The position numbers were made by a program, and so were the translations under genes. Below, piece by piece: positions 47,932-64,000 of a stretch of DNA of 64,000 bases (position 1 is its first letter; each line of letters begins with the position of its first letter). The DNA is from Pirellula sp. GTDB lineage: Bacteria > Planctomycetota > Planctomycetia > Pirellulales > PNKZ01. The stretch lies in contig PNKZ01000004.1 of assembly GCA_013822735.1 (NCBI GenBank), positions 186,001-250,000 on the forward strand, in the 5' to 3' direction. The notes beneath the pieces were generated by a model. That model worked only from the letters and a program-made list of their open reading frames with translations, was not told where the DNA came from and ran no database searches.

Positions 47932-50151
47932 ATGCGGATTGCGCGTTCCCGCCGGTTGCCTGTTGGCGCACTGGGGGCGTTACTCGTGCCCATGCTGCTT
48001 GTGATGCGAGCGTCCGTCGACGCGGAAGAGCCGAGCCCTCCTTCGCGCTACGCGCTGCTCGTCGGATGTACCGAGTATTCCGAACTAGGCCCCGATTATC
48101 GGTTGCAAGGACCGGATAATGACGTCGGGTTGATCCACCGGATGTTGCGCGAGCGATTTCAGTTCCAGGACACCGACATTGTGCATTTGGTTGCCGCGCA
48201 ACCGCCGATGTTGCGACCAACCCGCATAAACATTCTTCGCGAACTGGAACGCCTCACTGAGCGAATTCGGGACGGCGATCAGGTTGTGCTTTTGCTCGCC
48301 GGCCACGGAAGCCAACTTCCCGACTACGATGGGGACGAAGATGACGGCTTCGACGAAGTATTTCTACCGGAAGATACGCCTAGGAGCGCCAACGCGGGCA
48401 ACGTCGAGCGGGGGATTACAGATGACGCCCTGGCAAGCTTCTTTGGGCAATGGCGGCAAAAAGGAGCGAACGTTCTTTTCCTAGCCGATACGTGCCATTC
48501 CGGAACCATGTCTCGCGGCTGGGACAATGCAGATCGCACGCGAGGCGTAAGGCATGTTCCCGCCGATGTTCTATCGTCGCCCGATTTGGTACGCGACGCC
48601 GAACGGAAAGCTCGCGAACAGCTGGCGAACTCCGCCACCGCGAAGAAAGAGCACGACGAAACACGGCAGGACGATCTCCGCGGCGGTTTGACGGCGCTAT
48701 TTGCGGTGCCGCCGACGGCGTTGGAACAAGAGCATCCGATGCCTCCGCCCAATTGCGCCGCCGACGCTGCGCGTTTCGGGCGTTTGACCTATGCATTGCA
48801 TCAAGTGTTGGCGACGGCGCAAACACCGCTGACGCACCGCGAACTCGGCCAAGCATTGGCGCGGCAGTACCGCGATTGGGCGTGGTTCCCGTTGCCTGAA
48901 ATGGAAACGACGTACCTGGATAAGGAAGTGCTTGGAAAACGCACCTGGAATGATCGTTCGGCACTTCAATTCTCTCGGGCTTCCGACGGCACGTTGGAAC
49001 TCAATCAAGGGCTCGTTCACGGGCTGTCCCCGGGAACGATCGTGCGAATCCTGCCGGACTCGAGCCACATCGTCGATCCGAATGCCGTACAGGCGCAGCG
49101 GTACGTGACCGTCGCGCGCGCGACTCCCCTGAACGCCGTTGTCGAGCCTATTGCATTCGACGGCGCGTCGGCGGTTTCACCGGCGGATGTCCGAACTCCC
49201 GCTTCCTGCGAAATCGCGCAATTAGACTACGGCCCCCTGAAGCTCTCCGTGCGAGCGATTGCTTTGCACGAACATGATCCGAATGCGCCGAAGGTCGATG
49301 CATCGCAAGTTCAACGATTACGAACTACCGTTTCTGAGCTGGCAACTGCCAAGGAAGCGTTAGTTCGCGAAGCCGGTCCCAATGAATTGGCCGACGTACT
49401 GCTCATCGCCGGACCGCGCGGCATCGCCATGCGATTACGAGACGAGGAACGTTCGCCGCTCACCGCCAATGAAGTACGTACGGACCTATTTGGCCCCTAT
49501 TCGGTTGATGACACATTATCCGTAGCGCTCGCACGTGATTTGCGGCAAATTGCGGTGGCTGAAAACCTTCGTCGCCTCGCAGTCGACGGGCGACCGCAGA
49601 ATGTGTCGAAGCGTGACAAAGCGAGCGTACACGTTGATTGGCGTTTGGCGCGGGGCCATACGACAAAGGGACCGTGGACGCCGCTCTCCGACGGCGATGA
49701 ACGTCGCTTCACGCGCGGGGACGTTCTGCGCCTCACTCTGCAAAACGTCGGAACAACGCCGGCCGACGTCACGGTGCTCTACCTCGACGCCGCAAGGCAG
49801 ATTCAAAGCCAATACCCTTCGTTGCGGGCGTCTCAAGCCGGCGCGTACAACACTCTGTCGCCCGGCGCAATCCACGAACTTACCATCAAGATCAACGACG
49901 GCACCGTCGGCGCAGAAGACATTCTGATCGTTTCCGTTCTACACACGCCGCCGCTTTCGGTGAACTTCGCGTTCCTACAGCAGCCGGGCCTAACTCCTGC
50001 CGACCTTCGGCAAGTACGAGGCGAAAGCACGTCTCCGCTCGATGCTTTGCTGGAAGCGTCGTTATCGGGCACTCGCGGAACCCGCCGGACGAACATGGCC
50101 CGTCCCTTTACGCTACAACGCATCCGTCTCGACGTTTTTCGCTCACCTTAA
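47932..50151 (+). CDS. Exported caspase-family (C14) protease with large C-terminal domain
   Basis: 739 residues with a signal peptide or anchor (residues about 10-31). The caspase fold shows RYALLVGCTEYSELGPDYR, then the catalytic His125 in VVLLLAGHGSQLP and Cys188 in VLFLADTCHSGTMSRG. An acidic run DYDGDEDDGFDE follows the His, as in metacaspases. After residue about 350 comes a long beta-rich region. Near residue 620 it has VTVLYLDAARQIQSQYPS and LTIKINDGTVGAEDILIVSV, like the DUF4384 domains that accompany caspase-like proteins. It probably cuts proteins after basic residues, in the periplasm. It is the first of five plus-strand genes that end at 57108. Confidence 0.85.
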   Translation: MRIARSRRLPVGALGALLVPMLLVMRASVDAEEPSPPSRYALLVGCTEYSELGPDYRLQGPDNDVGLIHRMLRERFQFQDTDIVHLVAAQPPMLRPTRINILRELERLTERIRDGDQVVLLLAGHGSQLPDYDGDEDDGFDEVFLPEDTPRSANAGNVERGITDDALASFFGQWRQKGANVLFLADTCHSGTMSRGWDNADRTRGVRHVPADVLSSPDLVRDAERKAREQLANSATAKKEHDETRQDDLRGGLTALFAVPPTALEQEHPMPPPNCAADAARFGRLTYALHQVLATAQTPLTHRELGQALARQYRDWAWFPLPEMETTYLDKEVLGKRTWNDRSALQFSRASDGTLELNQGLVHGLSPGTIVRILPDSSHIVDPNAVQAQRYVTVARATPLNAVVEPIAFDGASAVSPADVRTPASCEIAQLDYGPLKLSVRAIALHEHDPNAPKVDASQVQRLRTTVSELATAKEALVREAGPNELADVLLIAGPRGIAMRLRDEERSPLTANEVRTDLFGPYSVDDTLSVALARDLRQIAVAENLRRLAVDGRPQNVSKRDKASVHVDWRLARGHTTKGPWTPLSDGDERRFTRGDVLRLTLQNVGTTPADVTVLYLDAARQIQSQYPSLRASQAGAYNTLSPGAIHELTIKINDGTVGAEDILIVSVLHTPPLSVNFAFLQQPGLTPADLRQVRGESTSPLDALLEASLSGTRGTRRTNMARPFTLQRIRLDVFRSP

Positions 50152-50288
50152 TCGCACATGATGCGAACGGTTCCTTTTTCGTCGGCTTGATTGTTTGCGG
50201 CATGAATTCCCTCCAACTACAATGAGGGGGCCAATCGGAGCTTTGCGGCGGCGTCGCGGCTCCTCATGCCCGCAACTTGAGCCACAAC

Positions 50289-52241
50289 ATGAGAACTGAA
50301 CCTCGTAATGCGCGACGTTTCCAACGTCCGCGATTTGCCCTTCTCGGCGTGTCTGTACTTCTTTTCGCAAGCCTATCTTGGGCACTTGCCGCCCATGAAG
50401 CACTGCGTGCGCACCAGGCTGCCGAAGGAAAATCTGGAAAGCTCCCTCCGAGCAACCGAGAATCGCTGCCCCGTAATGCAAAATCGGCCTTACACCTGTC
50501 GCCCGAAATCGCAGCTTGGGCGCAAGCGCTTCGAGGGCGTTTCGTTGCTGTCGACGATAACGCGCTACGGAAGATGCGCAGTGACGCAAAGACGGCGCTG
50601 GCCCAATTGCGATCAATAACCAATCCGTTGCCCGACGGAGCTGTGTGGGCCAAGACGTGGAACCTTGCAGGGCTGGAGACTTTTCTTAACACCGAGAAGC
50701 CGACGGAAGCCGCAGCCTTGAGTGCTAAGGAAGCTCTTTCAGTCGCCGCTCCGGCGGCGCTCGAGCCTAGTCGCCGATTGCTGGCGCATCGCCTTGGCGC
50801 ATTTGTCGACGCACGTTTTTGGTCACCGTCGGATGCCGACGCAGTTGCACGTCAAATCAATACGCTCGCCGAGGCCGCGCAACTGCATGGTTCGAACAAC
50901 GTCACTCAGAAGATCGAAGCGGCCGCCAGAGACGCGTTCGCCGCACTATCGGCCCGACGACGGGGCTTAGACTTACTTGTCGCATATCGCGCCGAACATT
51001 CAACTTTCAACTTTCGCAATCGCGTCGGCGCCGATTACGTCAGTGCGCAGTCGAAGCGGCAGTTCCAACTTCCGGTCGACTATCGTACGTCGACCGGCGG
51101 AATCAACGTCCATGTGCATGGCACCGCCGTCGCAGATGCAACGGCGCAAGTTGTGCCCAATCCGGAGCGCGCCGAGGTCCGCGTCGATGTGCAATCTGTC
51201 GGCAAATTTACCGTCGACGGCTCGAAGGGGCGCGTGCGGTTACAGGCGGCGAGCACGCAACGACTCCAGTCGACGCAGCCTTTGTTCATCGACGCAGGCA
51301 AGATCGATTCGCCGGGAGCCCGCATCTGCGATCGCAGCTGCACAAAACTAAATTGTCTCTCTGTTTGTATGCGACTACCGCTCGCCGAACGCGTTGCGGC
51401 AGCCGTGGCTTCGCGCATTGCCGCCAAGAAGCTCGCTGAGCACGACCCGGAGATTGCTCGCCAAGTGGAGAAACGCGTGCGTGAGCGTGTGGAAGACGAA
51501 GCATACGACATTACCTATCGCATCAACGGCGGCTTCGGCAAGCTTGCCTCCGGTTTCTTTCCGGCCGACGGCGAGGCGCAACGCCTGACCGTTCATAGCG
51601 ACTCCGACGCGATTCATTGGCAGGCGATGTACGTCGATGACGACGAATTGGGAGCCTTGGCCCCGCCCCGTTTTGAACAGCCGGCCGTCGACCTTGATGT
51701 GCAAACCTGGCTTCACGAATCGGCGATCAACAATTGGGGCTCGCGGCTGAGCGGAAAAATGCTCGACGAAGCGACCTTTTGGAAGGTCCTTTCCGACGAG
51801 TTCAAGCTACAGAGTTCGGTCGTGGAGAAGCTGCCCCCCTTGCGTTCCGCTTCGGTCCTTCGATTTTCCTCCGCCGATCCGCTGACGATGCGTTTTGAAC
51901 GCGGTGAAGTCGTCATTACGCTCGGGTTGCAGGGTTACATGCTGGACAATCGTCCAACTTGGAATACTCCGCGCAAGGCCACGGCCCGGTATCGTCTACA
52001 GCCCGGCCCAAGCGGCATGCAGTTTCGACGCGCCTCGGCCGACTTTGAAGAAGACTCCGCCTGGCAAGCGGTACTCGACCGCTTTCTTCCGATTACGTTC
52101 GAACCGAAGCCTCGCTTTCAGAATTCAAGCTTTAAAGATCGGCTGACCGTTCGCAACCTTTCCATTGCCGACGGCTGGCTCTTCATCGGTACCGTTCGCA
52201 CTTCGAAACTACCGTCCACATCGGCGGTCGCACAGGAGTAA
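50289..52241 (+). CDS. Unknown exported protein with Cys cluster
   Basis: About 650 residues from ATG 50289 (TTG 50277 is also in frame). An N-terminal hydrophobic segment (FALLGVSVLLFASLSWALA) is a signal or anchor. Residues about 40-240 are helical; about 240-360 beta-rich (GGINVHVHGTAVADATAQVV). Four cysteines at 347, 351, 356 and 360 (CDRSCTKLNCLSVC) could bind a metal or form disulfides. A Lys/Arg/Glu helix follows (ARQVEKRVRERVEDEAYDIT), then more beta-rich sequence. No family recognised. Its stop is 7 bases before the patatin-like gene, so they are co-transcribed; the first caspase gene lies 137 bases upstream. Confidence 0.8.
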   Translation: MRTEPRNARRFQRPRFALLGVSVLLFASLSWALAAHEALRAHQAAEGKSGKLPPSNRESLPRNAKSALHLSPEIAAWAQALRGRFVAVDDNALRKMRSDAKTALAQLRSITNPLPDGAVWAKTWNLAGLETFLNTEKPTEAAALSAKEALSVAAPAALEPSRRLLAHRLGAFVDARFWSPSDADAVARQINTLAEAAQLHGSNNVTQKIEAAARDAFAALSARRRGLDLLVAYRAEHSTFNFRNRVGADYVSAQSKRQFQLPVDYRTSTGGINVHVHGTAVADATAQVVPNPERAEVRVDVQSVGKFTVDGSKGRVRLQAASTQRLQSTQPLFIDAGKIDSPGARICDRSCTKLNCLSVCMRLPLAERVAAAVASRIAAKKLAEHDPEIARQVEKRVRERVEDEAYDITYRINGGFGKLASGFFPADGEAQRLTVHSDSDAIHWQAMYVDDDELGALAPPRFEQPAVDLDVQTWLHESAINNWGSRLSGKMLDEATFWKVLSDEFKLQSSVVEKLPPLRSASVLRFSSADPLTMRFERGEVVITLGLQGYMLDNRPTWNTPRKATARYRLQPGPSGMQFRRASADFEEDSAWQAVLDRFLPITFEPKPRFQNSSFKDRLTVRNLSIADGWLFIGTVRTSKLPSTSAVAQE

Positions 52242-52248
52242 ACCGCCC

Positions 52249-53733
52249 ATGATGTTCGCTCGTGCAGGTAGCTGCCATCCTTTCCTACTGTTCGCCTCGG
52301 TGCTGCTTCTTGGGGCGGCAACACTTCCGACGGCCGCCGCGCCGCCATCAGGCCTTTCCGTCGAGGAACGCCGTCGCTTTGCCGACGCGCAGCTGATGTT
52401 CTGCTTCCAAGGAAAGGGCTCGTGCCTCCCCTACGATGCCGGAGTGCTTCACGAGGCGTATTCACGACTCCCTGCGCTCCGCGAAAATCGCGTAATCATC
52501 GCGGGCAACAGCAGCGGCTCTATCGCCGCAGCTTATTTCGCATGCTTCGGGTTTAGCGATGCGACGGTTAAGCATGCCGTCACCCGACTTACGGAAGGAA
52601 ACCGCGACGCCGTGCGGAATATGGAGAACCCGCATTCCAAACTGTCGAAATCTATTCGCGGCAAGCCGACGGAGATTTCGCACGAGAACCTCCGTGAATA
52701 CATCGCCTTCGCGTTGGGTGTCGAGCGCTGGCAAGATGCGAAGTCGCTCGACGAAATCGTGGCCCGCAGCACGGCCAAGCCGCGCTACCCGATCATCATC
52801 GTCAGCTGCAACAAAGAAGTTCTGGAAGATGCCGATGCGAGCGACGGCCGTGCGTCGTCGCGCTACAAGGAGTTCGATCTCAATACGCTCACGGCCTCCT
52901 GGCGTCCCGAGGTTCACGAATTCTATCGGGCGCATCCCGAGCGTTTCGCGTCCGACCACCCCGACCTCGTTCTTTCCGACGATCGTCGGATCGGCCGCGG
53001 CGTAACATATTTCGTCGACCGCACGATGTACGCTCTTCTCAGTCAAATTCCTCCCGAGGAACGGCAAGCCGATTTGCGGCTAATTGAAACTGCCGCCGAC
53101 GTCGCCCTGGCGATCAAAGCGTCCGTCTCCGAGCCTACCTACTTCGCGCCCGTTCCCGAGTTGCAACCCGATCGCTTGCTCGTCGATAGCCGGCAGGGCG
53201 ACCTCGGCAATGTTCGCAAGCGCACTTATTACGGCGGATATATCGTTGCCGTGCCGTCACAAGACGTCCGCCGGATGTTGCCGGGCGTGCGTGTTTTCGG
53301 CACGGGCTTCCGGCATTTCGCATTGCTGTCTCGCTCGACGGTCCGTGATTGGCTATTGGCCGATGTCGAGCTCGTGGCGCAGCGAACCGAGTGGTGGGCC
53401 GACCTGGAAACCTACCCCGATGCCGAGATGGAAAGCCACATGGATTTTCGCGATCTTACGGCGCAGCAGGAATTTGAATTCGGACGTCGTCGCGCCGTGG
53501 AATGCTTCGCAGGCCATGCCGGTTTGCCGAAATTCGTCGCCCGCCCGAAATTCGATTACCCCGCGGCGGCCGCGATCATGCCCGCATACGCGGCAGATGA
53601 CATGTTCGAGAAGCCGGAGGCCCCTGCGATCGCTCAGAAAAGCGGCAAGTCCGGCGACGTACCCGCCCGGCAGCCGCTAAAATCCAACCGAGGTCTCGGG
53701 CCGCTCCTCACGGAACCTCGCCACGTGCCATAG
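52249..53733 (+). CDS. Exported patatin-like protein, apparent loss of catalytic Asp
   Basis: About 494 residues from ATG 52249 (GGAG at 52235-52238). A signal peptide (about 1-31) precedes a patatin-like domain: MFCFQGKGSCLPYDAGVL where the oxyanion loop should lie, then the Gly-X-Ser-X-Gly elbow IIAGNSSGSIAAAYFA with Ser88. The second catalytic residue, an Asp in a DGG/DGA turn, seems to be replaced: the segment that best aligns is RTYYGGYIVAV with Tyr328. Lipase activity is therefore doubtful, or another acid is used. The C-terminal 100 residues are Ala/Pro-rich and unlike the family. It lies in an operon with two caspase-like proteases and a HEAT-hydrolase. Confidence 0.75.
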   Translation: MMFARAGSCHPFLLFASVLLLGAATLPTAAAPPSGLSVEERRRFADAQLMFCFQGKGSCLPYDAGVLHEAYSRLPALRENRVIIAGNSSGSIAAAYFACFGFSDATVKHAVTRLTEGNRDAVRNMENPHSKLSKSIRGKPTEISHENLREYIAFALGVERWQDAKSLDEIVARSTAKPRYPIIIVSCNKEVLEDADASDGRASSRYKEFDLNTLTASWRPEVHEFYRAHPERFASDHPDLVLSDDRRIGRGVTYFVDRTMYALLSQIPPEERQADLRLIETAADVALAIKASVSEPTYFAPVPELQPDRLLVDSRQGDLGNVRKRTYYGGYIVAVPSQDVRRMLPGVRVFGTGFRHFALLSRSTVRDWLLADVELVAQRTEWWADLETYPDAEMESHMDFRDLTAQQEFEFGRRRAVECFAGHAGLPKFVARPKFDYPAAAAIMPAYAADDMFEKPEAPAIAQKSGKSGDVPARQPLKSNRGLGPLLTEPRHVP

Positions 53734-53793
53734 GCTCATGAACGCGCACGAAGCAGCGCCGTGCGAGTTATGTTCGACGTCAGGAAGGCTTCG

Positions 53794-54915
53794 ATGAACC
53801 GCCGGACCACCATACTTGTCACACTTCTTGGCGCGGCTCTATTGTTGTCGCCCAACTTCGCGGCCGCGCAGAATATTCACGCGATTATAGTCGCCGATAC
53901 GTCGCCGGCGGCAGGCTGGGGCATCTATCAGCCGAACGTGGAATTCGATGTGGTCCACATGCAGGGCTTCTTCGAGCAGAATGCTCCGGCCGACGCGCTC
54001 GTGCTGACGCGACATACGCTCGATACGAACGAGCAAGCGTCGCCGGCACGTATACTCGCACTGCTGGGAGCATTGAAGCCCGCGCCGAGAGATACCGTCG
54101 TACTCTACTATTCCGGGCACGGCGGCATCGACGATCGCGGGAGCTATTTCGAACTCGTCGGCGGCAAGCTCTATCGCGATGAGGTCTGCACCCAACTCAA
54201 AGCCAAGGGAGCTCGCCTCGCCGTGTTGCTGAGCGATTGTTGTAATTCGCGGAGCGACGGTCGTGCGCAGACCGCTCCCCGCGCCATTTTTCGCCGGCCG
54301 GAAACGTTCACGCCGTTGTTCCGGTCGCTCTTCGTGCAGCCCGACGGTTTCGTCGACGTTACGGCATGCGCGCCCGGTCAGAGCGCCTTTTTTTCCCCGC
54401 CGCCGACAGATGGCGACTCGGTCCCCGGTTCGCTCTTCACCAAGGCGCTGGCCGCTTGGACGGAAGAACATGCCGAGCGCGAGGCGACATGGGATGAGTT
54501 GGTAAACGACGTCGGCATCGAGGTGCATCTAGCTTTTGGCGAAGCATATCCGCAGGGAGCGACATTTGCCAAAGGCGCTCCCGTGCAGACCGACCAGAAT
54601 GTTTTTGCGCGCGAATACCCCGGCATGCCGCCGGAGCGCGGCCCACGTATCGGGATTGCCGTTCGCGACGACGAAGGCGCCGTGAAAATTGTCGAAGTCG
54701 TTCCCAATTCACCCGCCTGCCGCGCGTTCAATCTCGAAACGGAAGCGTACGTGCCGTTAGTCGTCGGCGGTCGCGTCACAATGATTAACGGCAATCCAAT
54801 CGCCGACAGTCAGGCGTTTACTACCGCTATCAAAGAATCCACCCCAATTATCCGGCTCACGATTGCCAATCCTGGCGCCGATCCGCAAGAATTTCTCGTT
54901 CGACTGCGTTACTAG
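53794..54915 (+). CDS. Exported caspase-family protease with C-terminal PDZ-like domain
   Basis: About 373 residues from ATG 53794, supported by AGGAAGG 5 bases upstream; ATG 53770 and GTG 53761 are in frame. A signal peptide ends near AAAQN. Caspase landmarks: VVHMQGFFEQN, catalytic His109 in VVLYYSGHGGIDDRG, and the Cys pair 149-150 in VLLSDCCNSRSD. Residues about 285-373 look like a PDZ domain (VRDDEGAVKIVEVVPNSPACRAF, GGRVTMINGNPIADSQAF). PDZ domains bind exposed C-termini, so this may direct the protease to substrates. Third gene of the tight row starting at 50289; the HEAT-hydrolase follows after 12 bases. Confidence 0.85.
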   Translation: MNRRTTILVTLLGAALLLSPNFAAAQNIHAIIVADTSPAAGWGIYQPNVEFDVVHMQGFFEQNAPADALVLTRHTLDTNEQASPARILALLGALKPAPRDTVVLYYSGHGGIDDRGSYFELVGGKLYRDEVCTQLKAKGARLAVLLSDCCNSRSDGRAQTAPRAIFRRPETFTPLFRSLFVQPDGFVDVTACAPGQSAFFSPPPTDGDSVPGSLFTKALAAWTEEHAEREATWDELVNDVGIEVHLAFGEAYPQGATFAKGAPVQTDQNVFAREYPGMPPERGPRIGIAVRDDEGAVKIVEVVPNSPACRAFNLETEAYVPLVVGGRVTMINGNPIADSQAFTTAIKESTPIIRLTIANPGADPQEFLVRLRY

Positions 54916-54927
54916 GAGACCGTTTGC

Positions 54928-57108
54928 ATGACGCCGCCCACCGTTAATCGAGCCGTCGCAACCAAAACGTCCGCGCCACGGATCTCGTCGGTATGGTTGC
55001 CTCTCCTGGCTCTGGCAGTATTCGCGTCAACCGACAACGTCGCAGGACAATCGCCGGCGGACGATGCATCGTCCGGGCCCGCTACGTCTGCCGCTCCCTC
55101 GTCTACCACCCCGCCGCGGATCAAGGCGAATCCCGACGTTGTCACCGACGATTGGGCCGCGCAAGTCCTCCGGAGCGACCCCCTCACCAAGCTGCCTCGA
55201 CCGACAATCGCCGACCTTCGCAAGGCCCTGGCCGATCCGAAGCAGGCAGATCACGTGTTGCCGCGTCACTTCGTTCGCGCGCAACTTCCTGCAACGGAGC
55301 AGACGGAATTACTGCGTGAAGCGCTGCGTCATACGTCGCTCGAGGTTCGACGACAGGCGGCCCACGAGCTACAGCGGCAAGGCCTGCTGGAAGAAGCGGT
55401 GGGCGCGCAGCTCGTGGAATTCGCAATTCGCAAGGACTCCAAAGACGATTTCACGGCGGTCATTGCGTTGCAAGACGTGATACTGCCGTGGTCGCAAGTC
55501 TCCGAAGCCTACTGGCAGGAAATCTTGCGAGCGCTCGCTTCGGAGAATAGCGGCGCATCCTTTGCGGCGTCGAGGCAATTGAGTCGCTGGGGCGCCGACG
55601 CCGTTCCCCGCCTGCTGGATGCTGCGAAATCGGACGACAAGTCGCTTCGCAACGCCGCGATTCGCGCCTTGGCGGAGATCGTCGGCACGGCGCGCGCCCT
55701 CGAGGCTCCGTCGGGAGTCCTCTTGCCCACGTACGGCGCGGCGGCCGAGACGCGACGGGTTGAACCCGCCGGCGGATCCGCGCCGCCGCCGGCCGTGGTT
55801 GCTAAATCAATGCCTGTCGTTCGCACGGAGGTTCATCAGGATCGCATGCTCGATCACAAGCATCCGAATTCCGTGCGAGTCTATTACGGAACGAATCGGG
55901 AAGTGCTTAAGACGGTCCCGGAACCCGGCTATCTGTTGTACGGATTGCCAATTGTTCTGCTCTTCGTAATTTGCATGGCGTTTCGCGGTATTCGCAAACG
56001 ATTGGCCGGCAAGACTGTGTGGGGAGCGATCATGTCGCTATTTATTGTTACGGCGACCGTCGGAGCGAGCGCCTGGATCGTGCTAGTCTGGAATCAAGAA
56101 TATCGCTCTGCCTACACGGAGACCGTCGGCGTTACGTACGGAGCGCATCGTGAAAAGGACGGCGGCGTTCACTACGGCTATTGCGACGTCTCGATTCCGC
56201 CGACGCACTCCGTGGGAGAGATCGAACGGCCGCTGCTCGGCGGCGAAGACGAAGCGCAGCACGTGATGTTGCGTCGCAATGAAGAATTGAAGGAAGACGC
56301 GTTCTTTAAGGAAGTGCGGCAGGTTTTGGCCGAACGCGCGGCCGACGAACGCAACTGCTTTATCTTCGTGCACGGCTACAACGTCACGTTTGAAAAGGCG
56401 GCAATGCGCACCGCGCAGATTCACTACGACCTCAACTTCCGCGGCGTGCCGATGTTCTACAGCTGGCCTTCGCGCGCCAACGTACGCAGCTATTTTTCCG
56501 ATCGCAACGAGATCTTTTATAGCTACGAACACATCATGCGCTTTCTCTTGGCCACGGCCGAACGCGTCGACGCCAAACGCGTGCACGTGATCGCCCATAG
56601 CATGGGAGCCGACGCCGTGAGTCGGGCCATTCTGGCCATGGGCGACCGCGGCAAAATCTTCGATCAAATCATCCTAGCGGCGCCGGATATCGACGCCGAC
56701 GTGTTCCGCGACCAAGTTCAGCCGCGGATGCAGCAACTCGCCAATCGCACGACGCTTTATTGCTCGCGGAACGATTGGGCGCTGCACGCGTCCTACGCCT
56801 TCAACGATAGCGTACGTCTCGGCGATTCCAGTCGCAGCATCTTCGTCGCCGACGGCATGGATACCGTTGATGCTTCGGATATCGACACCGATCTACTGGG
56901 CCATTCTTATTATGGCGACTGCCTCAAGTTGCTGAACGACGTTCAATTGGTGATCGAAAAGAATCTGCCTCCCCTCGAACGCCGGCTTACTTCGCGCGAC
57001 AGGGAGAAACTGAAGTACTGGACCTTCATGGAAGATCTCCCGAAGCCGAAGCCGACGACGGCCGCGGATGCAATACCGACGCCGTCACCGACCTCGACGA
57101 AGCCGTGA
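54928..57108 (+). CDS. HEAT-repeat, two-TM protein with DUF900-type alpha/beta hydrolase domain
   Basis: 726 residues. After a signal peptide or anchor, residues about 110-260 are HEAT-like helical repeats (LEVRRQAAHELQRQGLLEEAV, DKSLRNAAIRALAEIVG). Two membrane spans follow at about 334-352 (YLLYGLPIVLLFVICMAF) and 364-390 (MSLFIVTATVGASAWIVLVW). The C-terminal half is a DUF900 hydrolase: NCFIFVHGYNVTFEKAA with the oxyanion HGYN at 482-485, MFYSWPSRA, and HVIAHSMGADAVSRA with Ser558. DUF900 members are esterase-like with little-known substrates. Likely topology places the HEAT and hydrolase domains on the same side of the membrane. Last of the five-gene row; it ends one base from the kinase gene on the other strand. 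Confidence 0.85.
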   Translation: MTPPTVNRAVATKTSAPRISSVWLPLLALAVFASTDNVAGQSPADDASSGPATSAAPSSTTPPRIKANPDVVTDDWAAQVLRSDPLTKLPRPTIADLRKALADPKQADHVLPRHFVRAQLPATEQTELLREALRHTSLEVRRQAAHELQRQGLLEEAVGAQLVEFAIRKDSKDDFTAVIALQDVILPWSQVSEAYWQEILRALASENSGASFAASRQLSRWGADAVPRLLDAAKSDDKSLRNAAIRALAEIVGTARALEAPSGVLLPTYGAAAETRRVEPAGGSAPPPAVVAKSMPVVRTEVHQDRMLDHKHPNSVRVYYGTNREVLKTVPEPGYLLYGLPIVLLFVICMAFRGIRKRLAGKTVWGAIMSLFIVTATVGASAWIVLVWNQEYRSAYTETVGVTYGAHREKDGGVHYGYCDVSIPPTHSVGEIERPLLGGEDEAQHVMLRRNEELKEDAFFKEVRQVLAERAADERNCFIFVHGYNVTFEKAAMRTAQIHYDLNFRGVPMFYSWPSRANVRSYFSDRNEIFYSYEHIMRFLLATAERVDAKRVHVIAHSMGADAVSRAILAMGDRGKIFDQIILAAPDIDADVFRDQVQPRMQQLANRTTLYCSRNDWALHASYAFNDSVRLGDSSRSIFVADGMDTVDASDIDTDLLGHSYYGDCLKLLNDVQLVIEKNLPPLERRLTSRDREKLKYWTFMEDLPKPKPTTAADAIPTPSPTSTKP

Positions 57109-57109
57109 G

Positions 57110-59896
57110 TTACTTTCCCTCGGCGACGTTTTTCGCTCCTCCGGTCTTGAGCGCGGCAAGCCGTTGCGTGTAGCTCATTACGAGTTCGGCGTCGAGTAGC
57201 GTGGGGTTGGCCTCCATGATCTCCAGTTGCTTTTGTAAGGCGCTCGTGAGCATCGGTCCGCCGCCGCCCGATTGCGAAATGAAGCTTTCGATCGCTTGCT
57301 TGAGATCCGCGAAGGCACCGGCCTGATCCTTGAGCGTCAGCTTGGAATTGCCCCGCACGAAGTAGGCCGTCGCGTTGTCAGGCTGCAAATCGATCGCCTT
57401 GCCGGCGTCGCTCACGGCCTCTCGGTACTGCTTCAACTCATAGTGCGCCGTGGCGCGATTCAGATAGGCCGAAGCGTTCTTATCGTCGAGGCTCAGCACG
57501 TCGTCGTACTCCGCGAGCGCCGTGCGCCAGTCGCCCTGCCGGCCGTAGCAGAAGGCGCGGCCCAGGCGAGCATCAATGTGACGAACGTCCAACTCCTTCA
57601 CGACGGTGTTGAAATCAACCAGTGCCGAACCGAAGTCTTGCTCCGACAAGTAGGCATCGCCGCGCTTCACGTACGCTTCGGCCGTTACGCTCCGCAAGCC
57701 TTTGGGATCGACCGAGGGAACTTCCTGCAATTCTTTCGCCGCGATCAACACCGCGGAAATCTCGCGCACCGTTTTGGCCTTCTTCAGTTGTTCGCGGAGT
57801 CGTGCTAAGAGGTCGGCGACACGGAAGCTCACGCCGAACGAAGCCTTCGCGGTGAGCGGCGGCGTGCCGGAATCCTTCACCTCAAAGGAGATCGTCACCG
57901 GCTTGGCGGAAAGGTCCTTGCCGATATCCGGCGAGTACGTGATGCGGCCCGTTTTAGTATCGAGCTTCACTCCGTCCGGAACGGGAGCGGCAAGCGCTAT
58001 GTGCATCTTACTGCCGGGGGCGGCATCCGGGTCCCGCGCCTTCACGGTCAATGTAAGAGCCGGCCCATCCGTCTCCAGCGGCAGCGTCACGATCTGATCG
58101 GGGATGGCCGCGATCACCGGCGGTTTGTTCTCGGCGGCGATATCGAACTCCACTTCGGTTTCGGCCGATAGCGAGGGCGTTCCATCGTCGGCGACGGAAA
58201 GTTTCATCTTCGTCGCCTTGCCGGCGAACAAGCTGCTCGGCGTCCAAGTTAATTCTCCCGTCGCGGCATCCAACACGGCTCCCTCCGGCAGCGAACTTGC
58301 CTTGGCTACGGCAAAGCGAAGTTTTTGCGCGGGAAGATCCGCATCCGTCGCCTGCAATTTTACGCGCAGGGCGCCGTCAACACGGCCGGCCACTCGAGCA
58401 ACTGGCTGCAGCACCGGCGCCGCATTCACCTCCGTGACGTTCACCTCCAACGCCTGTTCCGAAGAGAGGGGCGGCGTGGCATCATCACTCGCGCCGATGC
58501 GCACCTTAAACTTTCCCGGACCTTGGCTTTCGCTCGGCGTCCAAACCAGCGCGCCGGTCTTCGCATCAAGCGTCATGCCGGTCGGACCTTCAATCAGATT
58601 CAACTTCAGGCGCTCGCGCGGCGTCGCATCATCTTTTACGTCGATCGGCAACTTCCAAGCCGCCGATTCAGGGATCGCGCTGCTCGCGGCGGTCGACGTA
58701 GCAAGAAACTTCGGAGCTTGATTGGGAGGCACGACCGGTTCCGGCGGCTTCTTCGGCGGAACATCCGCCGGCTTTTCGGCGACATCTCCGGGCGCAGGCG
58801 CCCCGGGTTCTTCCGGAATCAGGAAGATGCCGACCGCCGCAACGGCGAACAGCGCCGCGACGATCATCGCTTTGCGGCTTTTCTTCTTCTCATTCACCTT
58901 GGGCTTTGCCGCAGCGGCGTTCGTACGCGATGCGGCCCCTTTTGCAGCCGGAGGAGGAGCGGAAGCCCCGGCCACAGTTGCGGTGTCGTACTTGGAAGCA
59001 GGATCAAAGACGCGATTAACGCCGCCGACGAGCTCTGCTCCTCCTCCTGCAGCACTACCGGTCACGCCGATTTCCGGAGCAACGATCGGCACCAGCGGCG
59101 ACGGCGATAGATCGCGGAGCGCCTCCTCCGCCGTCAGATAGCGATCCCCTGCTTTCTTTTTGAGCAATCGGTCGAGAACCATCGCCAATTCCAGCGACGC
59201 GCCGGGAACGAGCTCTGCGGTGCCCGGCAGTTTCGTTTCTTCACCTGCATGCCAACGCATCCAGGCCGTGCGGCTCTCCTGCTCGTTGCCGCCGACGCCC
59301 GGAAAGAGTCCGTCGAATTTCGGGCCCAACAACAGTTCCAGCACGCTGAATCCGAGCGTGTACAGATCGGCCGCCGGTCCGTATTCGCCGAACGCAGGGC
59401 TCACCGCTTCCGGCGCCACGTACTTCATGAGCCGCTTCTGATACGGCAATCCGCCGACGACCGCGGCTCCGACGGAGAAGCTCAGCTTGATTCGGCCGGC
59501 TCGATTGAGCAGCAACGAATGTGGACGGATGTCGCCGTGTGTTCGTTTCTGCTCATGCAGACGCTGCAGACCCGCAAGACCTTGGCGAAGCACGGAACGG
59601 GCCGCCTCCGGGTCGAGCGGACTTTTGAGCAGTTGTGCGCAATGACCGCACATCAACTCCATCACGATCCATCCTTGCGCGCGATCGACTGCAAAGACCG
59701 GCACCAGCCGATCGTCGGTCAGTTGGGCGAGGAAGGTGATTTCATCCCAGAAGCGCGGAGAGCGCTCCGCCTCTTTGCGCAGCGACGGGTCTAATTGAAA
59801 GATCGCCACTTCTCGCTTGAGCGAGAACTGCACGCCGCGGTAGACGGTTCCGTAGGCATTCTGCCCGAGCGATTCCCAGGTTTCGAAGTCGGCCAT
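57110..59896 (-). CDS. Kinase-like (probable pseudokinase) protein with TM, Ig/cadherin-like and TPR domains
   Basis: 928 residues. Residues 1-265 follow the Ser/Thr kinase plan: glycine loop LGQNAYGTVYRG, catalytic-loop HGDIRPHSLLL (Asp122), YVAPEAVS, ADLYTLGFSVLELLL. But the VAIK lysine is Phe33 (REVAIFQLD) and the DFG motif is absent (RIKLSFSVGAAV, about 136-146), so phosphotransfer is doubtful. A membrane span at 342-361 is followed by three or four putative-Ig/cadherin-like domains (each with the GVKLDTKTGRITYSPD-type ending, about 400-720), and then TPRs (about 760-890, for example ASAYLNRATAHYELKQYREA). It is last in the tad operon, 31 bases after the FHA gene. The TPRs would lie outside the cytoplasm. 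Confidence 0.88.
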   Translation of the reverse strand: MADFETWESLGQNAYGTVYRGVQFSLKREVAIFQLDPSLRKEAERSPRFWDEITFLAQLTDDRLVPVFAVDRAQGWIVMELMCGHCAQLLKSPLDPEAARSVLRQGLAGLQRLHEQKRTHGDIRPHSLLLNRAGRIKLSFSVGAAVVGGLPYQKRLMKYVAPEAVSPAFGEYGPAADLYTLGFSVLELLLGPKFDGLFPGVGGNEQESRTAWMRWHAGEETKLPGTAELVPGASLELAMVLDRLLKKKAGDRYLTAEEALRDLSPSPLVPIVAPEIGVTGSAAGGGAELVGGVNRVFDPASKYDTATVAGASAPPPAAKGAASRTNAAAAKPKVNEKKKSRKAMIVAALFAVAAVGIFLIPEEPGAPAPGDVAEKPADVPPKKPPEPVVPPNQAPKFLATSTAASSAIPESAAWKLPIDVKDDATPRERLKLNLIEGPTGMTLDAKTGALVWTPSESQGPGKFKVRIGASDDATPPLSSEQALEVNVTEVNAAPVLQPVARVAGRVDGALRVKLQATDADLPAQKLRFAVAKASSLPEGAVLDAATGELTWTPSSLFAGKATKMKLSVADDGTPSLSAETEVEFDIAAENKPPVIAAIPDQIVTLPLETDGPALTLTVKARDPDAAPGSKMHIALAAPVPDGVKLDTKTGRITYSPDIGKDLSAKPVTISFEVKDSGTPPLTAKASFGVSFRVADLLARLREQLKKAKTVREISAVLIAAKELQEVPSVDPKGLRSVTAEAYVKRGDAYLSEQDFGSALVDFNTVVKELDVRHIDARLGRAFCYGRQGDWRTALAEYDDVLSLDDKNASAYLNRATAHYELKQYREAVSDAGKAIDLQPDNATAYFVRGNSKLTLKDQAGAFADLKQAIESFISQSGGGGPMLTSALQKQLEIMEANPTLLDAELVMSYTQRLAALKTGGAKNVAEGK

Positions 59897-59927: not shown

Positions 59928-60728
59928 TCAGTAGGCCCCGGGCGTGATTTGTTGTGTTACGAACGATTCGGCCTCCAGCAATGCATCCGGTACCGGACGC
60001 CCCTGCGTGAGGAGTTGATTTTTTTCCCAAACGATCCGATCGCGAAGCCGGCGATAACCGGCCGCGGAACGAACCTCATCGCCCCGATAGGCGTCGGCGT
60101 ATGACTTGCTCAGTTGAATCCATAGGTCAGGAGCGCAATTCGGATCCTTTTGCAACAAGGAAACCACCTCGGAGAACGGCGCGGGAGCTTTTTCCTCCCC
60201 TGCAGCGGGCCCAGAAGGAAGGAATTCGTCGGAAAACAGGATCAAAACGGCGGCAACGGCGAATACCAAGCCCGCAATAATCGCACCGGTGTTCGACTTT
60301 TCTGGTTTCGGTTCCGATGGACTTCCGCCGCCGATCGCCACGTCGTCCGGCGATGCGCCGGCGACAGGTACTGCCTCGCGAACCGGCTGCGGATCCGCCG
60401 GCAACGGACGTCGGGTTGGAGCGCCGTCGCCCGAGGTTTCGAGTTTCAACGCCGAGCCGTTGGGGAATCGAAGCGTCTTGCCCGACCGCCACACGCCGCT
60501 TTCGCTGGGAGCGAGCGTGACGGCGTCAAGTTGCAATGGCGCCGAACTGCGGTTGAAGACGGTGTATCGTCCGTCGCCGTAACGCACTGTGAGTGCATGC
60601 GGCTCAACTCCGGAATCGGCCAGCACGAGTTCGCAACTCGGGTCGCTTCCGAAGCGCAACACTTCGTACTCGACCCATAGTTCCGAGCCGGCTTCCGCCC
60701 CTTCGACGACAATGAGTTTTGCAGGCAT
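59928..60728 (-). CDS. FHA-like domain membrane protein with altered phosphopeptide site
   Basis: 266 residues. Residues about 1-95 look like an FHA domain: VLRFGSDPSCELVLADSG, then VEPHALTVRYGDGRYTVFNR. Where active FHA domains have Gly-Arg and Ser-Arg-His, this has Gly27-Ser28 and Glu42-Pro43-His44; Asn59 is kept. The canonical phosphothreonine contacts thus seem lost. A membrane span follows (IIAGLVFAVAAVLILF, about 140-160). The C-terminal part (LWIQLSKSYADAYRGDEVRS) is helical. It lies 6 bases after tadC and 31 before the kinase gene, so it is part of the Tad operon. Confidence 0.75.
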   Translation of the reverse strand: MPAKLIVVEGAEAGSELWVEYEVLRFGSDPSCELVLADSGVEPHALTVRYGDGRYTVFNRSSAPLQLDAVTLAPSESGVWRSGKTLRFPNGSALKLETSGDGAPTRRPLPADPQPVREAVPVAGASPDDVAIGGGSPSEPKPEKSNTGAIIAGLVFAVAAVLILFSDEFLPSGPAAGEEKAPAPFSEVVSLLQKDPNCAPDLWIQLSKSYADAYRGDEVRSAAGYRRLRDRIVWEKNQLLTQGRPVPDALLEAESFVTQQITPGAY

Positions 60729-60734
60729 GAGTTA

Positions 60735-61634
60735 TTAAATTCCCAGCGCGCCCAAGATAAATGGCGCACCGATAATGATCAGGCAGGCGATCATGATCAC
60801 CATGCCCGGAAGGACGATATTCACTTGCGCCGTACCGGCGGCTTTTTCGGCCCATTGCGAACGTTTGAGCCGCATCTGTTCCGCTTGTAATCGGAACGTC
60901 TGCGCCATCGGAGTGCCGAACTCGTTTCCTTTGTTCACCATGAAGACAAGTTCTGCCACGTCGTCGTCGGGCACTCGCTGTTGGAAGCGTTGCAGACTTT
61001 CGTTCAGCGGACGGCCGAGATTGATCTCGCTGACGATGATCGAAAGCTCGTCTCCCAGCGGATGGCCGCGCAGGTCGCGCACCAGGGTATTTAAGCCGTC
61101 CATGAGCCCCCCGCCGGCCTCGAGCATGAGCGCCATCAAGTCGACGGCGAACGGCAACCGTCGCTTGACGAGCGACGTTCGGCTCTCGGCCTTCTTCGCC
61201 ACACTGCTCACGGCGTTGTACTGCAGAAAGGCGGTGGCGGCGACGGCAAGCACCACGCCAAGCCCGGGCCCACCCATCAGAAAGCCGAGCATGAATCCAA
61301 TGCCGCCGCCGATCAATCCTTCCACGAGCTTCACGGCGAGAAACTCCTCCGGCTTCCACGGCAACGGTTCGCCCGCGGAAACGAGCTGCGTCGCCAGCTT
61401 CGGAAGTTTACCGCCGCGGCGATACCATTGCGACAATTCGTCGACGATCGGTTCGAACCAGCGGTAGGCGGAGTTTCCCTTACGCAAGGCGATCCGTCGC
61501 GACGCTTCAAACTCCCACGTAGCCGCCGTTTTCGGCAAAGGCCGATTTACGGAACGTTGGATCCATGCGGTGAGCGCAGCCGTTCCGAGCCCGGCAAAGG
61601 TACTGGCGGCGAGAAGTAATTGGGCTCGTTCCAT
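60735..61634 (-). CDS. tadC: Tad-type inner-membrane platform protein TadC (T2SS F family)
   Basis: 299 residues of the type II secretion F family. The core helical segment is RRLPFAVDLMALMLEAGGGLMDG, with EINLGRPLNESLQRFQQRV and VNKGNEFGTPMAQTFRLQAEQMR, then a closing membrane pair (VNIVLPGMVIMIACLIII). Extra hydrophobic segments lie at residues about 5-25 and 110-140. With TadB it forms the platform that the TadA ATPase acts on to extend a fine pilus or secrete proteins. Spaced 21 bases from tadB and 6 from the FHA gene. Confidence 0.9.
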   Translation of the reverse strand: MERAQLLLAASTFAGLGTAALTAWIQRSVNRPLPKTAATWEFEASRRIALRKGNSAYRWFEPIVDELSQWYRRGGKLPKLATQLVSAGEPLPWKPEEFLAVKLVEGLIGGGIGFMLGFLMGGPGLGVVLAVAATAFLQYNAVSSVAKKAESRTSLVKRRLPFAVDLMALMLEAGGGLMDGLNTLVRDLRGHPLGDELSIIVSEINLGRPLNESLQRFQQRVPDDDVAELVFMVNKGNEFGTPMAQTFRLQAEQMRLKRSQWAEKAAGTAQVNIVLPGMVIMIACLIIIGAPFILGALGI

Positions 61635-61655: not shown

Positions 61656-62510
61656 CTAAACGTCCAAACTCAAGATGCGATTAGCCCACCGCACGGCGGC
61701 ATACACGATGACGATCACAAAGACGAGGACGACCTGGCCGAGGATCGTCGTAAATAAGAGCGCGGTCCCCTCAGGATTCAAAAAGTAGAACAAGCCGAGA
61801 AACACCGCCGGAAACGCCGCGAGCATCACGACGACCTTGCGACCGCTTTCAGTATCCGCTTCGAGCTTACGTTCGAGGCGTTGATTCTCCTGCAAGCTCC
61901 GACTAATCCGTTCGAGCGCGTCAGTAATCCTCCCGCCACGCTCTAAGCTGACCAAAAGCGCCGAAGTGAACAATGTGAAGCCGTCGAGCTTCAGGCGGTC
62001 GCGGGCTTGAATCAGCGCCTCGGAAAGGGGTCGGCCGCCGCGATAGTCGCGCACGATGCGATGCAGCTCCGTCGCCAACGGCTCGGGCGTTTCTTGCGCG
62101 ACGTTCTCGATGCCCTGGGCCAACGAAAGCCCGGCACGCGTGGCGTTGGCGAGCGCCGTCACGGTGCCGACCAATTGATCGCGCAGCAACTTGCTGCGCC
62201 GATGGATCATGAGATGCAAGTAGAGCTTCGGCGCGACGTACACCAGATACACCGCGGCAAAGGCGACGGGCCACATCCCGAGGCCGATCGAAAACAGTAC
62301 GAACACCGCGGCCATCGCAATGCCCCACCAGCGCATCAGCTCCGGCATGCGATCGCTTCCGAGGCTCAGCGCATCAAGCATCGGCCGCACCTCGGCGACG
62401 TAGCGTACGGCCAAGCGATCCCAAAGCGGCATCACCAGTTGCACGACGTAAAACGCCGTCGCGCCGATGGCGATGCTCGAAGCGAAAAGTAGGATAGGTG
62501 CCAAATCCAT
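61656..62510 (-). CDS. tadB: Tad-type inner-membrane platform protein TadB (T2SS F family)
   Basis: 284 residues from ATG 62510; an upstream in-frame ATG would overlap tadA. T2SS F features: LVGTVTALANATRAGLSLAQG, EAQIENVA-like EGIENVAQETPEPLATELHR, GRPLSEALIQARDRL, LVSLERGGRITDALERISRS, LEADTESGRKVVVMLAAFPA and a hydrophobic C-terminus. It lies 29 bases after tadA and is one of the two platform components. Hydrophobic N-terminal spans begin at residue 2. Confidence 0.9.
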   Translation of the reverse strand: MDLAPILLFASSIAIGATAFYVVQLVMPLWDRLAVRYVAEVRPMLDALSLGSDRMPELMRWWGIAMAAVFVLFSIGLGMWPVAFAAVYLVYVAPKLYLHLMIHRRSKLLRDQLVGTVTALANATRAGLSLAQGIENVAQETPEPLATELHRIVRDYRGGRPLSEALIQARDRLKLDGFTLFTSALLVSLERGGRITDALERISRSLQENQRLERKLEADTESGRKVVVMLAAFPAVFLGLFYFLNPEGTALLFTTILGQVVLVFVIVIVYAAVRWANRILSLDV

Positions 62511-62539
62511 GATGTCGAACGATCGGCGCTCACGCAGAC

Positions 62540-64000
62540 TTAGAGATAGAACGTGTTCAAGTCCAACAAGCCGGTGCTGATCAGCTTTTCCATAAACGTC
62601 GGTAAGCAACCGGTCGGGCGAAGCATCGGCTTGCCGTCGACCGTTTCCAATTGAAACAGATCCTTCAACCGCATCTGTTTGGTGACCTCGTCATACTCCA
62701 CGACTTCGGCGATCTGCGTGACGCGGCGCGAGCCGTCGCGGAGTCGCGCTTGCTGAACGATGAGATCCACCGCCGAAGCGATCTGCCGATGGATCGACTC
62801 GACCGGCAAGTCGGCCGCCATTTGCACCAACACCTCGAGGCGCAAGATCACGTCTTCAGCGCTATTCGCGTGAATCGTGGTCATCGAGCCGTCGTGTCCG
62901 GTGTTCATGGCCTGGAGCATATCGAGCGACTCGCCCGAGCGGCATTCGCCGACGACGACACGGTCGGGCCGCATACGGAGAGCGTTCTTCACGAGATCGC
63001 GAATCGTGTACTCGCCGCGTCCTTCGACGTTGGCCCCTTTCGTTTCGAGCCGCACGACGTGTTCTTTGGCCAGCTGCAATTCGGCCGTGTCTTCGATCGT
63101 AACGATGCGTTCCTTGTCAGGAATGAAGTCGCTCAAGCAATTGAGCAGCGTGGTTTTACCGCTCCCGGTGCCGCCGGCAATGATGATGTTGGCGCGCGAC
63201 AACACGGCTGCCTTGAGAAAGGCCGCTACCGTCGGCGTCAGGCTCCCCTTGGCGATCAGGTCGTCGACTTTCAACCGTCGCGATGGGAACTTGCGAATGG
63301 TGATGCACGGACCGCTAACGGCCAGCGGCGGAATCACGGCGTTGACGCGACTCCCGTCCCACAGCCGGGCATCCACGAGCGGCTGCGACTTGTCGATGCG
63401 CCGCCCCACGCGCGAGACAATCCGTTCGATAATCGCCAACGTTGTTTCGTCCGACGTGAAGCGACGGCCCGAATTCTCCAGCACGCCCGACTTCTCGATG
63501 TAAATATGCTCGCGGTCGACGACCATGATTTCCGACACCGTCGGCACGCGGAGCAAATCTTCGAGCGGACCGTAGCCGAAGACGATGTCTTTGATTTGCT
63601 TCTTGAGGTAGCGAAAGGCCAGGTATTCGCGAAAGTCGCGATGCACGGCATCGGCCTGGGCCGCAAACGCGGGCCAAAACTTGCGTTCGACGGCTTCCAG
63701 ACGTTCCGTAAGAGGCGCCGACGCAGGGATCTCCAACTGCCGGGTCAACCGCAGGTTGGTCTCCTGCATTTCCCGTTCGCGATCGGCTACGATGGAAAGA
63801 ATGCGACTCCAGGGAGCGCCGCCGGCGAGCGAGTTGTCCACGGTCGCGGCCGACGAATTGAGCATATCGTTCAGCATTTCGCTACGAAGCGCATGGCCGG
63901 CGACGTGCAAAATGAGCGCGTCGTTCTCCGCTTTGAGCAATCCGCGTAGCCGAGCGATCTCTTCGATGTTGTGCTCGAGCACGAGGAGGTATTCGTCGGT
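62540..64000 (-). CDS. tadA: Tad-system ATPase TadA/CpaF (5' end beyond window)
   Basis: At least 486 codons; the frame stays open through 64000, and the GTG at 63982 has no good ribosome site, so the N-terminus is probably outside the window. The secretion-ATPase core is complete: FGYGPLEDLLRVPTVSEIMV, IIAGGTGSGKTTLLNCLSD (Walker A), ALRMRPDRVVVGECRSGESL (Walker B and Asp box), MNTGHDGSMTTIHANSAEDV (His box). The visible N-terminal part (LVLEHNIEEIARLRGLLKAE) is helical. It powers pilus assembly or Tad secretion in the cytoplasm; tadB follows 29 bases downstream. Confidence 0.93.
   Translation of the reverse strand, partial: TDEYLLVLEHNIEEIARLRGLLKAENDALILHVAGHALRSEMLNDMLNSSAATVDNSLAGGAPWSRILSIVADREREMQETNLRLTRQLEIPASAPLTERLEAVERKFWPAFAAQADAVHRDFREYLAFRYLKKQIKDIVFGYGPLEDLLRVPTVSEIMVVDREHIYIEKSGVLENSGRRFTSDETTLAIIERIVSRVGRRIDKSQPLVDARLWDGSRVNAVIPPLAVSGPCITIRKFPSRRLKVDDLIAKGSLTPTVAAFLKAAVLSRANIIIAGGTGSGKTTLLNCLSDFIPDKERIVTIEDTAELQLAKEHVVRLETKGANVEGRGEYTIRDLVKNALRMRPDRVVVGECRSGESLDMLQAMNTGHDGSMTTIHANSAEDVILRLEVLVQMAADLPVESIHRQIASAVDLIVQQARLRDGSRRVTQIAEVVEYDEVTKQMRLKDLFQLETVDGKPMLRPTGCLPTFMEKLISTGLLDLNTFYL

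Follow-up and report, generated by a model that had tools for sequence, protein, structure and literature searches.

A Tad-linked kinase-like protein of Pirellula sp. without key catalytic residues, encoded beside a motor ATPase with a degenerate FHA domain

The last gene of a Tad pilus locus in Pirellula sp. encodes a membrane protein that an annotation pipeline would call a Ser/Thr kinase, and in which residues needed for catalysis are missing. This leads us to ask what a kinase fold of this kind does next to a pilus motor, all the more so since bacterial pseudokinases are little studied. The window analysed here is a stretch of 64,000 nucleotides (contig PNKZ01000004.1, positions 186,001 to 250,000), to whose numbering the following features refer.

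57110..59896, minus strand: Tad-linked pseudokinase, 928 amino acids, ATG start
59072..59896, minus strand: its kinase-like domain, residues 1-275, with VAIF, HGDIRPHS and FSV in place of VAIK, HRDxxxxN and DFG
residues about 400-690 of the same protein: Ig/cadherin-like repeats (Pfam)
residues about 740-850 of the same protein: TPRs (Pfam)
59928..60728, minus strand: FHA-like and transmembrane (TM) protein, Yop-YscD_cpl at 32.0 bits, just under the cut-off of 33.2
60735..61634, minus strand: TadC-like T2SSF membrane platform protein (Pfam)
61656..62609, minus strand: TadB-like T2SSF membrane platform protein (Pfam)
62540..64000, minus strand: TadA/CpaF motor ATPase, truncated by the window edge (Pfam)

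The Pfam Pkinase match covers residues 5-260 (E 1.5e-20, 74.2 bits), meaning that homology to the Hanks-type kinase fold extends over the whole domain while catalytic residues are missing. At the positions of the Lys, HxD Asp, Asn and DFG Asp of an active Hanks-type Ser/Thr kinase, the protein has F, D, S and F. The initial annotation had placed a Phe at the VAIK Lys, and Phe33 (VAIF) is indeed found there, aligned with the VAIK Lys of solved STK24 chains. It was also right about the missing DFG Asp: residues 140-142 read F-S-V and neither Asp nor Glu occurs anywhere in 137-160, although the STK24 Asp falls on F140 only in a profile alignment and is skipped in a single-sequence one. APE is present, as had been reported. 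The HGD and glycine loops, described as kept, are so only in part. The catalytic loop H120-G-D-I-R-P-H-S127 retains HxD Asp122 and has Ser127 for the Asn, a loss that adds to the earlier observation, and the glycine loop GQNAYG retains two of its three Gly. Helix C Glu52 is present, and Lys27, six residues N-terminal of position 33, is conserved within the genus. An active WNK-like kinase was considered and is disfavoured; the position of the WNK-type rescue Lys is occupied by Gly16. Beyond a single TM segment at 343-361 (hydropathy scan), Pfam detects the He_PIG/Big_9/cadherin-like repeats and TPRs that had been claimed. AF2 models were poor, with pLDDT 45 for the kinase domain (three sequences: window, L014 and L015) and 39 for the TadA FHA domain (two sequences, L014 and L015).

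In this genome, Lys, HxD Asp and DFG Asp are all present in 33 of the 36 Pkinase domains. Besides the window protein, the exceptions are L197 (G000:C16:76300-78400), a kinase-like protein that keeps HGDVRPQN and has Gln in the VAIK motif and LQFP at the DFG site, and L198 (G000:C33:7600-9700), with VVVR for VAIK, CRN for HRD and DFG kept.

The same condition is found in three other genomes of the genus, G001 (probably contig JAFLCO010000134.1), G002 and G003 (probably JAEUIN010000341.1), which have F or W at the Lys position, a kept HGD, S or T at the Asn and FS or FA at DFG. Catalytic residues are therefore absent in all four genus genomes searched, and since three further genomes show the same losses, chance or a sequencing slip is excluded. 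The earlier view of a catalytically dead kinase-like protein is well supported. A contig scan returned two loci only, both in the genus. The reading frame is open in all four genomes, the G002 protein being shorter, with a match that stops ahead of the TPRs. Within the genus, pairwise dN/dS (NG86) is 0.11-0.26 for the kinase domain, rough values given that dS runs from 0.8 up, and 0.04-0.10 for the ATPase part of TadA. The pseudokinase gene is under purifying selection, yet evolves faster than the motor.

The gene closes the series tadA-tadB-tadC-FHA/TM-kinase, in which tadA, tadB and tadC are adjacent and in order, as in a Tad pilus locus. Spacing is tight, with 31 bp between the pseudokinase and the FHA-like/TM gene, 6 bp from there to TadC and 21 bp from TadC to TadB, and the listed TadB ORF overlaps the end of TadA. 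Together with the congruence of the kinase and TadA trees and a neighbourhood that is conserved across many genomes, this spacing gives good support to the proposal that the protein belongs to the adjacent Tad machine. The plus-strand genes at 47932-57108 converge on this operon. All in one direction, they encode two caspase-like proteins (Peptidase_C14), of which one has a PDZ domain, a protein with a weak likeness to patatin, and a DUF900 hydrolase that carries HEAT repeats.

The FHA phosphothreonine-binding motif consists of the Arg of GR plus S-R-x-H. An N-terminal FHA-like domain of TadA, absent from the initial annotation, lies beyond the window, within G000:C4 250001-250426, and can be aligned with FHA-TadA relatives, as in class III CpaF. 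It keeps GR, has A-D-R-A for S-R-x-H and so lacks the phosphothreonine-binding motif. In Pfam it is matched only by Yop-YscD_cpl, at E 8e-5, below the cut-off; in TadA relatives the FHA domain scores above it. The protein at 59928..60728 has GS and VEPH where an FHA domain has GR and SRxH. Related membrane proteins occur between tadC and the kinase elsewhere (for example L057:7592-8626, compared with 59928-60728 of the window), their N-terminus being a zinc ribbon in an intact version of the kind described below (G022), whereas in some genomes, the window genome included, it resembles FHA.

How widely kinase and FHA-TadA occur together was followed in 296 genomes of the order, presumably Pirellulales, with two profiles, A1 from five kinase domains (threshold E 1e-40) and A2 from nine TadA N-termini (E 1e-12). 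Each was found in 51 of the 296 genomes and both in 46; of these 46, 33 carry the two genes on a single contig, separated by no more than 14.4 kb, and 13 on different contigs. The C-terminal parts of the kinase relatives differ, including FGE-sulfatase, PEGA, Ig and caspase domains; the Tad-linked intact kinase of G606 (L115:2399-5338), for instance, ends in a caspase-like domain. Some clusters carry a second, shorter TadA-like ATPase gene (L048:7487-8686, L049:7601-8818, L046:16232-16999), which in some cases adjoins the degenerate kinase, and in G220 the degenerate Tad kinase has as its neighbour a gene for two kinase-like domains, at least one of them degenerate (L064:9954-12281).

Alignment with planctomycete kinases at tad loci, the check proposed in the initial annotation, separates two versions of this locus. 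Most relatives are intact, with VAIK, HGDxKPxN and DFG in the kinase and GR...SRxH in the FHA domain of TadA. In the others, including the window genome, kinase and TadA FHA are both degenerate. In the first draw, 48 of the 51 FHA-TadA genomes could be assessed (including G273, whose kinase was located only later): 35 have an intact kinase with RSRH, 13 a degenerate kinase without it, and none is mixed. A larger draw brought FHA-TadA to 62 of 396 genomes, and the 11 new ones, drawn after the rule had been noticed, all agree, with seven intact and four degenerate pairs (G634, G673, G690, G727). All 59 assessable pairs of the order thus agree in state, counting as intact, as far as read, the partial kinases of G184 and G278, readable only from HxD onward. 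Left out are G042 (a short ORF that is not TadA), G079 (kinase not found) and G288 (a degenerate kinase with an unreadable FHA); three weak kinases that lack an FHA-TadA (G014, G029, G031) and genomes in which TadA was not found (G225, G252) stand outside the pair counts. One degenerate genome, G727 (L141, L158), belongs to a genus of which four members (G284, G671, G683, G701) have the intact version, which suggests transfer or replacement of whole Tad loci.

Outside the order the pairing holds in one direction. G337 and G472 combine an intact kinase with RSRH, and G601 and G327 a degenerate kinase with an FHA domain lacking it. A rule equating an intact kinase with a perfect FHA motif fails there on seven counter-cases, in which one or two residues of S-R-x-H are missing beside an intact kinase (RSKQ in G606; S replaced by A or N in G372, G406, G478, G491, G512 and G630), so the strict motif is not needed where the kinase is intact. 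The converse holds throughout the sample: where the kinase is dead the FHA domain is never canonical, R-S-R-H being found in none of the 19 readable cases (G288 is unreadable), and the Arg of SRxH is missing from every readable degenerate FHA. No kinase was seen in the stretch of five further FHA-TadA loci outside the order (G382, G400, G534, G549, G558), and G582, whose nearby kinase scores only 68.9 bits, is excluded from the counts.

Trees were built from subsets of 49, 55, 47 and 53 rows, with close relatives and short pieces dropped. In rooted trees of the TadA ATPase part, all degenerate forms from within the order group together as a single clade (99/98 with 55 rows, 100/97 with 53), and a second degenerate group, G601 and G327, is sister to the intact G472. 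The kinase tree (47 rows, G029 included) recovers the same two groups with weaker support (90/92) and shows several long branches among the degenerate forms. Phylogenetically, the pairing thus comes down to a single old clade and one further case from outside the order, which is no statistical proof; with only two phylogenetically independent cases the sign test (p 0.5) cannot reach significance. Since Lys persists in some branches of the degenerate clade and HxD Asp in others, both were probably present in the ancestor of that clade. In the 53-row TadA tree, assuming no regain, Lys was lost at least three times within this clade, HxD Asp at least four times plus once outside, DFG Asp at least six times plus once outside, and DFG Gly once per degenerate group; residue states were entered by hand for these counts, and branching within the clade is partly uncertain. 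We read this pattern as suggesting that catalysis was abandoned once per group, after which single residues decayed in parallel while the gene was retained.

Several explanations of the window protein have to be weighed against this background. That it is a functionless, decaying remnant is very improbable: several catalytic residues are gone and long branches occur among the degenerate forms, but the frame is open throughout the genus, selection is purifying, and the degenerate kinase is retained across five families (f1, f6, f7, f15, f17). We also consider it improbable that some non-canonical transferase activity survives in the domain, or that nucleotide is bound by a different set of residues. 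Such a function would be favoured by the precedent of SelO, a pseudokinase with another activity, by the conserved Lys27, and by retention of the HxD Asp, the Glu of helix C and part of the glycine loop; against it, Lys, Asn and DFG Asp are all gone, a bulky F or W sits at the Lys position, 137-160 holds no acidic residue, and relatives of the same clade have lost other catalytic residues instead.

Phosphorylation in trans by another kinase of the genome, followed by recruitment of an FHA protein, is modelled by mycobacterial MviN and FhaA, and the 33 other Pkinase domains with K, D and D could supply the kinase. Against it, neither of the two FHA-type domains encoded here has the phosphothreonine motif S-R-x-H, and this scenario, too, seems improbable. 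A dead transmembrane sensor, whose Ig/TPR ectodomain would bind a wall or surface ligand and whose pseudokinase would signal allosterically to the motor, is the more serious rival, though still unlikely. It fits the single TM segment with a large ectodomain and the varied C-terminal parts of the relatives, as expected of sensors; it fits less well with the G002 protein, which matches only as far as the region ahead of the TPRs.

The likeliest reading of the window protein is a structural, scaffold-type role, as initially suggested, a reading helped by the FHA domain of TadA being degenerate along with the kinase and by a precedent in type VIIb secretion (T7SSb). A pseudokinase paired with an FHA motor that also lacks its key residues points to structure rather than to signalling. 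At the ancestral locus, the membrane kinase would have been active and the FHA domain of the TadA motor able to bind phosphothreonine, the two presumably forming a phospho-switch on the Tad motor, and the lineage of the window genome would have lost both ends of it together. The pseudokinase domain would then most likely dock, free of phosphorylation, on the degenerate FHA domain of TadA, perhaps also on the neighbouring FHA-like membrane protein, and so anchor the motor at the inner membrane, while its Ig/TPR part would reach across to the other side. We hold it somewhat better than even that the protein is in this sense a membrane docking hub of the Tad motor, convergent with T7SSb; contrary to docking, the Arg of GR is still present in the FHA domain of the window genome. 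The residue losses, the operon, the co-occurrence, the matching states, the congruent trees and the purifying selection are direct observations, whereas inactivity, docking and the ancestral switch are inferred. The wider scenario, a planctomycete Tad phospho-switch that became a phosphorylation-independent dock in one old lineage, independently repeating T7SSb, is put forward more tentatively, at somewhat less than even confidence. If true, pseudokinase plus pseudo-FHA would be a general, repeatedly evolved means of coupling a motor ATPase to a membrane complex. The pseudokinase family described here offers intact sister forms at the same locus, together with a candidate partner that decays in step, so that a change from signalling to scaffolding could be traced and tested directly; it would also show what many CpaF motors use their FHA domain for.

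Our literature search found nothing on a pseudokinase with Tad, CpaF, FHA or Planctomycetes, nor on Tad pili with a protein kinase in Pirellulales. The accessible part of a survey of Planctomycetota kinases, which sorts them by K-D-D sites, does not mention Tad pili (PMC11032199), and searching the main text of a review of bacterial pseudokinases from 2025 for the terms Tad and Planctomycet- gave no hit (PMC12599244). The Tad-linked pseudokinase with a co-decaying FHA motor appears to be new; the arrangement of a dead kinase with a degenerate FHA domain is already known in T7SSb.

Tad motor ATPases with a fused FHA domain are known as class III CpaF (PMC12019362), and KilF of the Myxococcus Kil system also bears one (PMC8460266); in the accessible parts of both papers the motor is not paired with a kinase or pseudokinase. 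The PpkA-Fha1 threonine phosphorylation pathway, described as regulating type VI secretion, likewise joins a kinase and an FHA partner in the control of an envelope machine and may serve as a model for the intact version, although its kinase is active and its FHA domain is not fused to a Tad motor. Closer still to the intact version is type VIId secretion (T7SSd), where TsdD, a predicted membrane kinase, stands beside the FHA ATPase TsdC. According to the portion of the source available to us, the FHA motors of T7SSd and T7SSe conserve the phosphothreonine site, and the predicted kinase of T7SSd could act with its motor (PMC11217815). That is another secretion system, however, and the window genome has the degenerate version.

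The degenerate version finds its counterpart in YukC/EssB of T7SSb. According to the part of the study available to us, this membrane pseudokinase has a Phe that partly occludes its ATP site and does not bind ATP; tests in E. coli showed binding to the FHA domains at the N-terminus of the YukB/EssC motor. Those of YukB lack phospho-binding residues, and docking is phospho-independent (PMC9600267). Like the window protein, YukC/EssB is membrane-anchored, with an N-terminal cytosolic kinase fold and an outer domain, and its occluding Phe recalls the Phe at the VAIK Lys. The immediate neighbours of the window protein are T2SSE and T2SSF Tad proteins, in place of the FtsK-type EssC/YukB ATPase and WXG100 proteins of an EssB/YukC context. 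FHA binding, shown for YukC/EssB, is what we infer for the window protein; the ectodomains differ, the hosts are Bacillota there and Planctomycetota here, and the motor is an FtsK-type ATPase in T7SSb and the VirB11-like ATPase of a Tad pilus in Pirellula sp.
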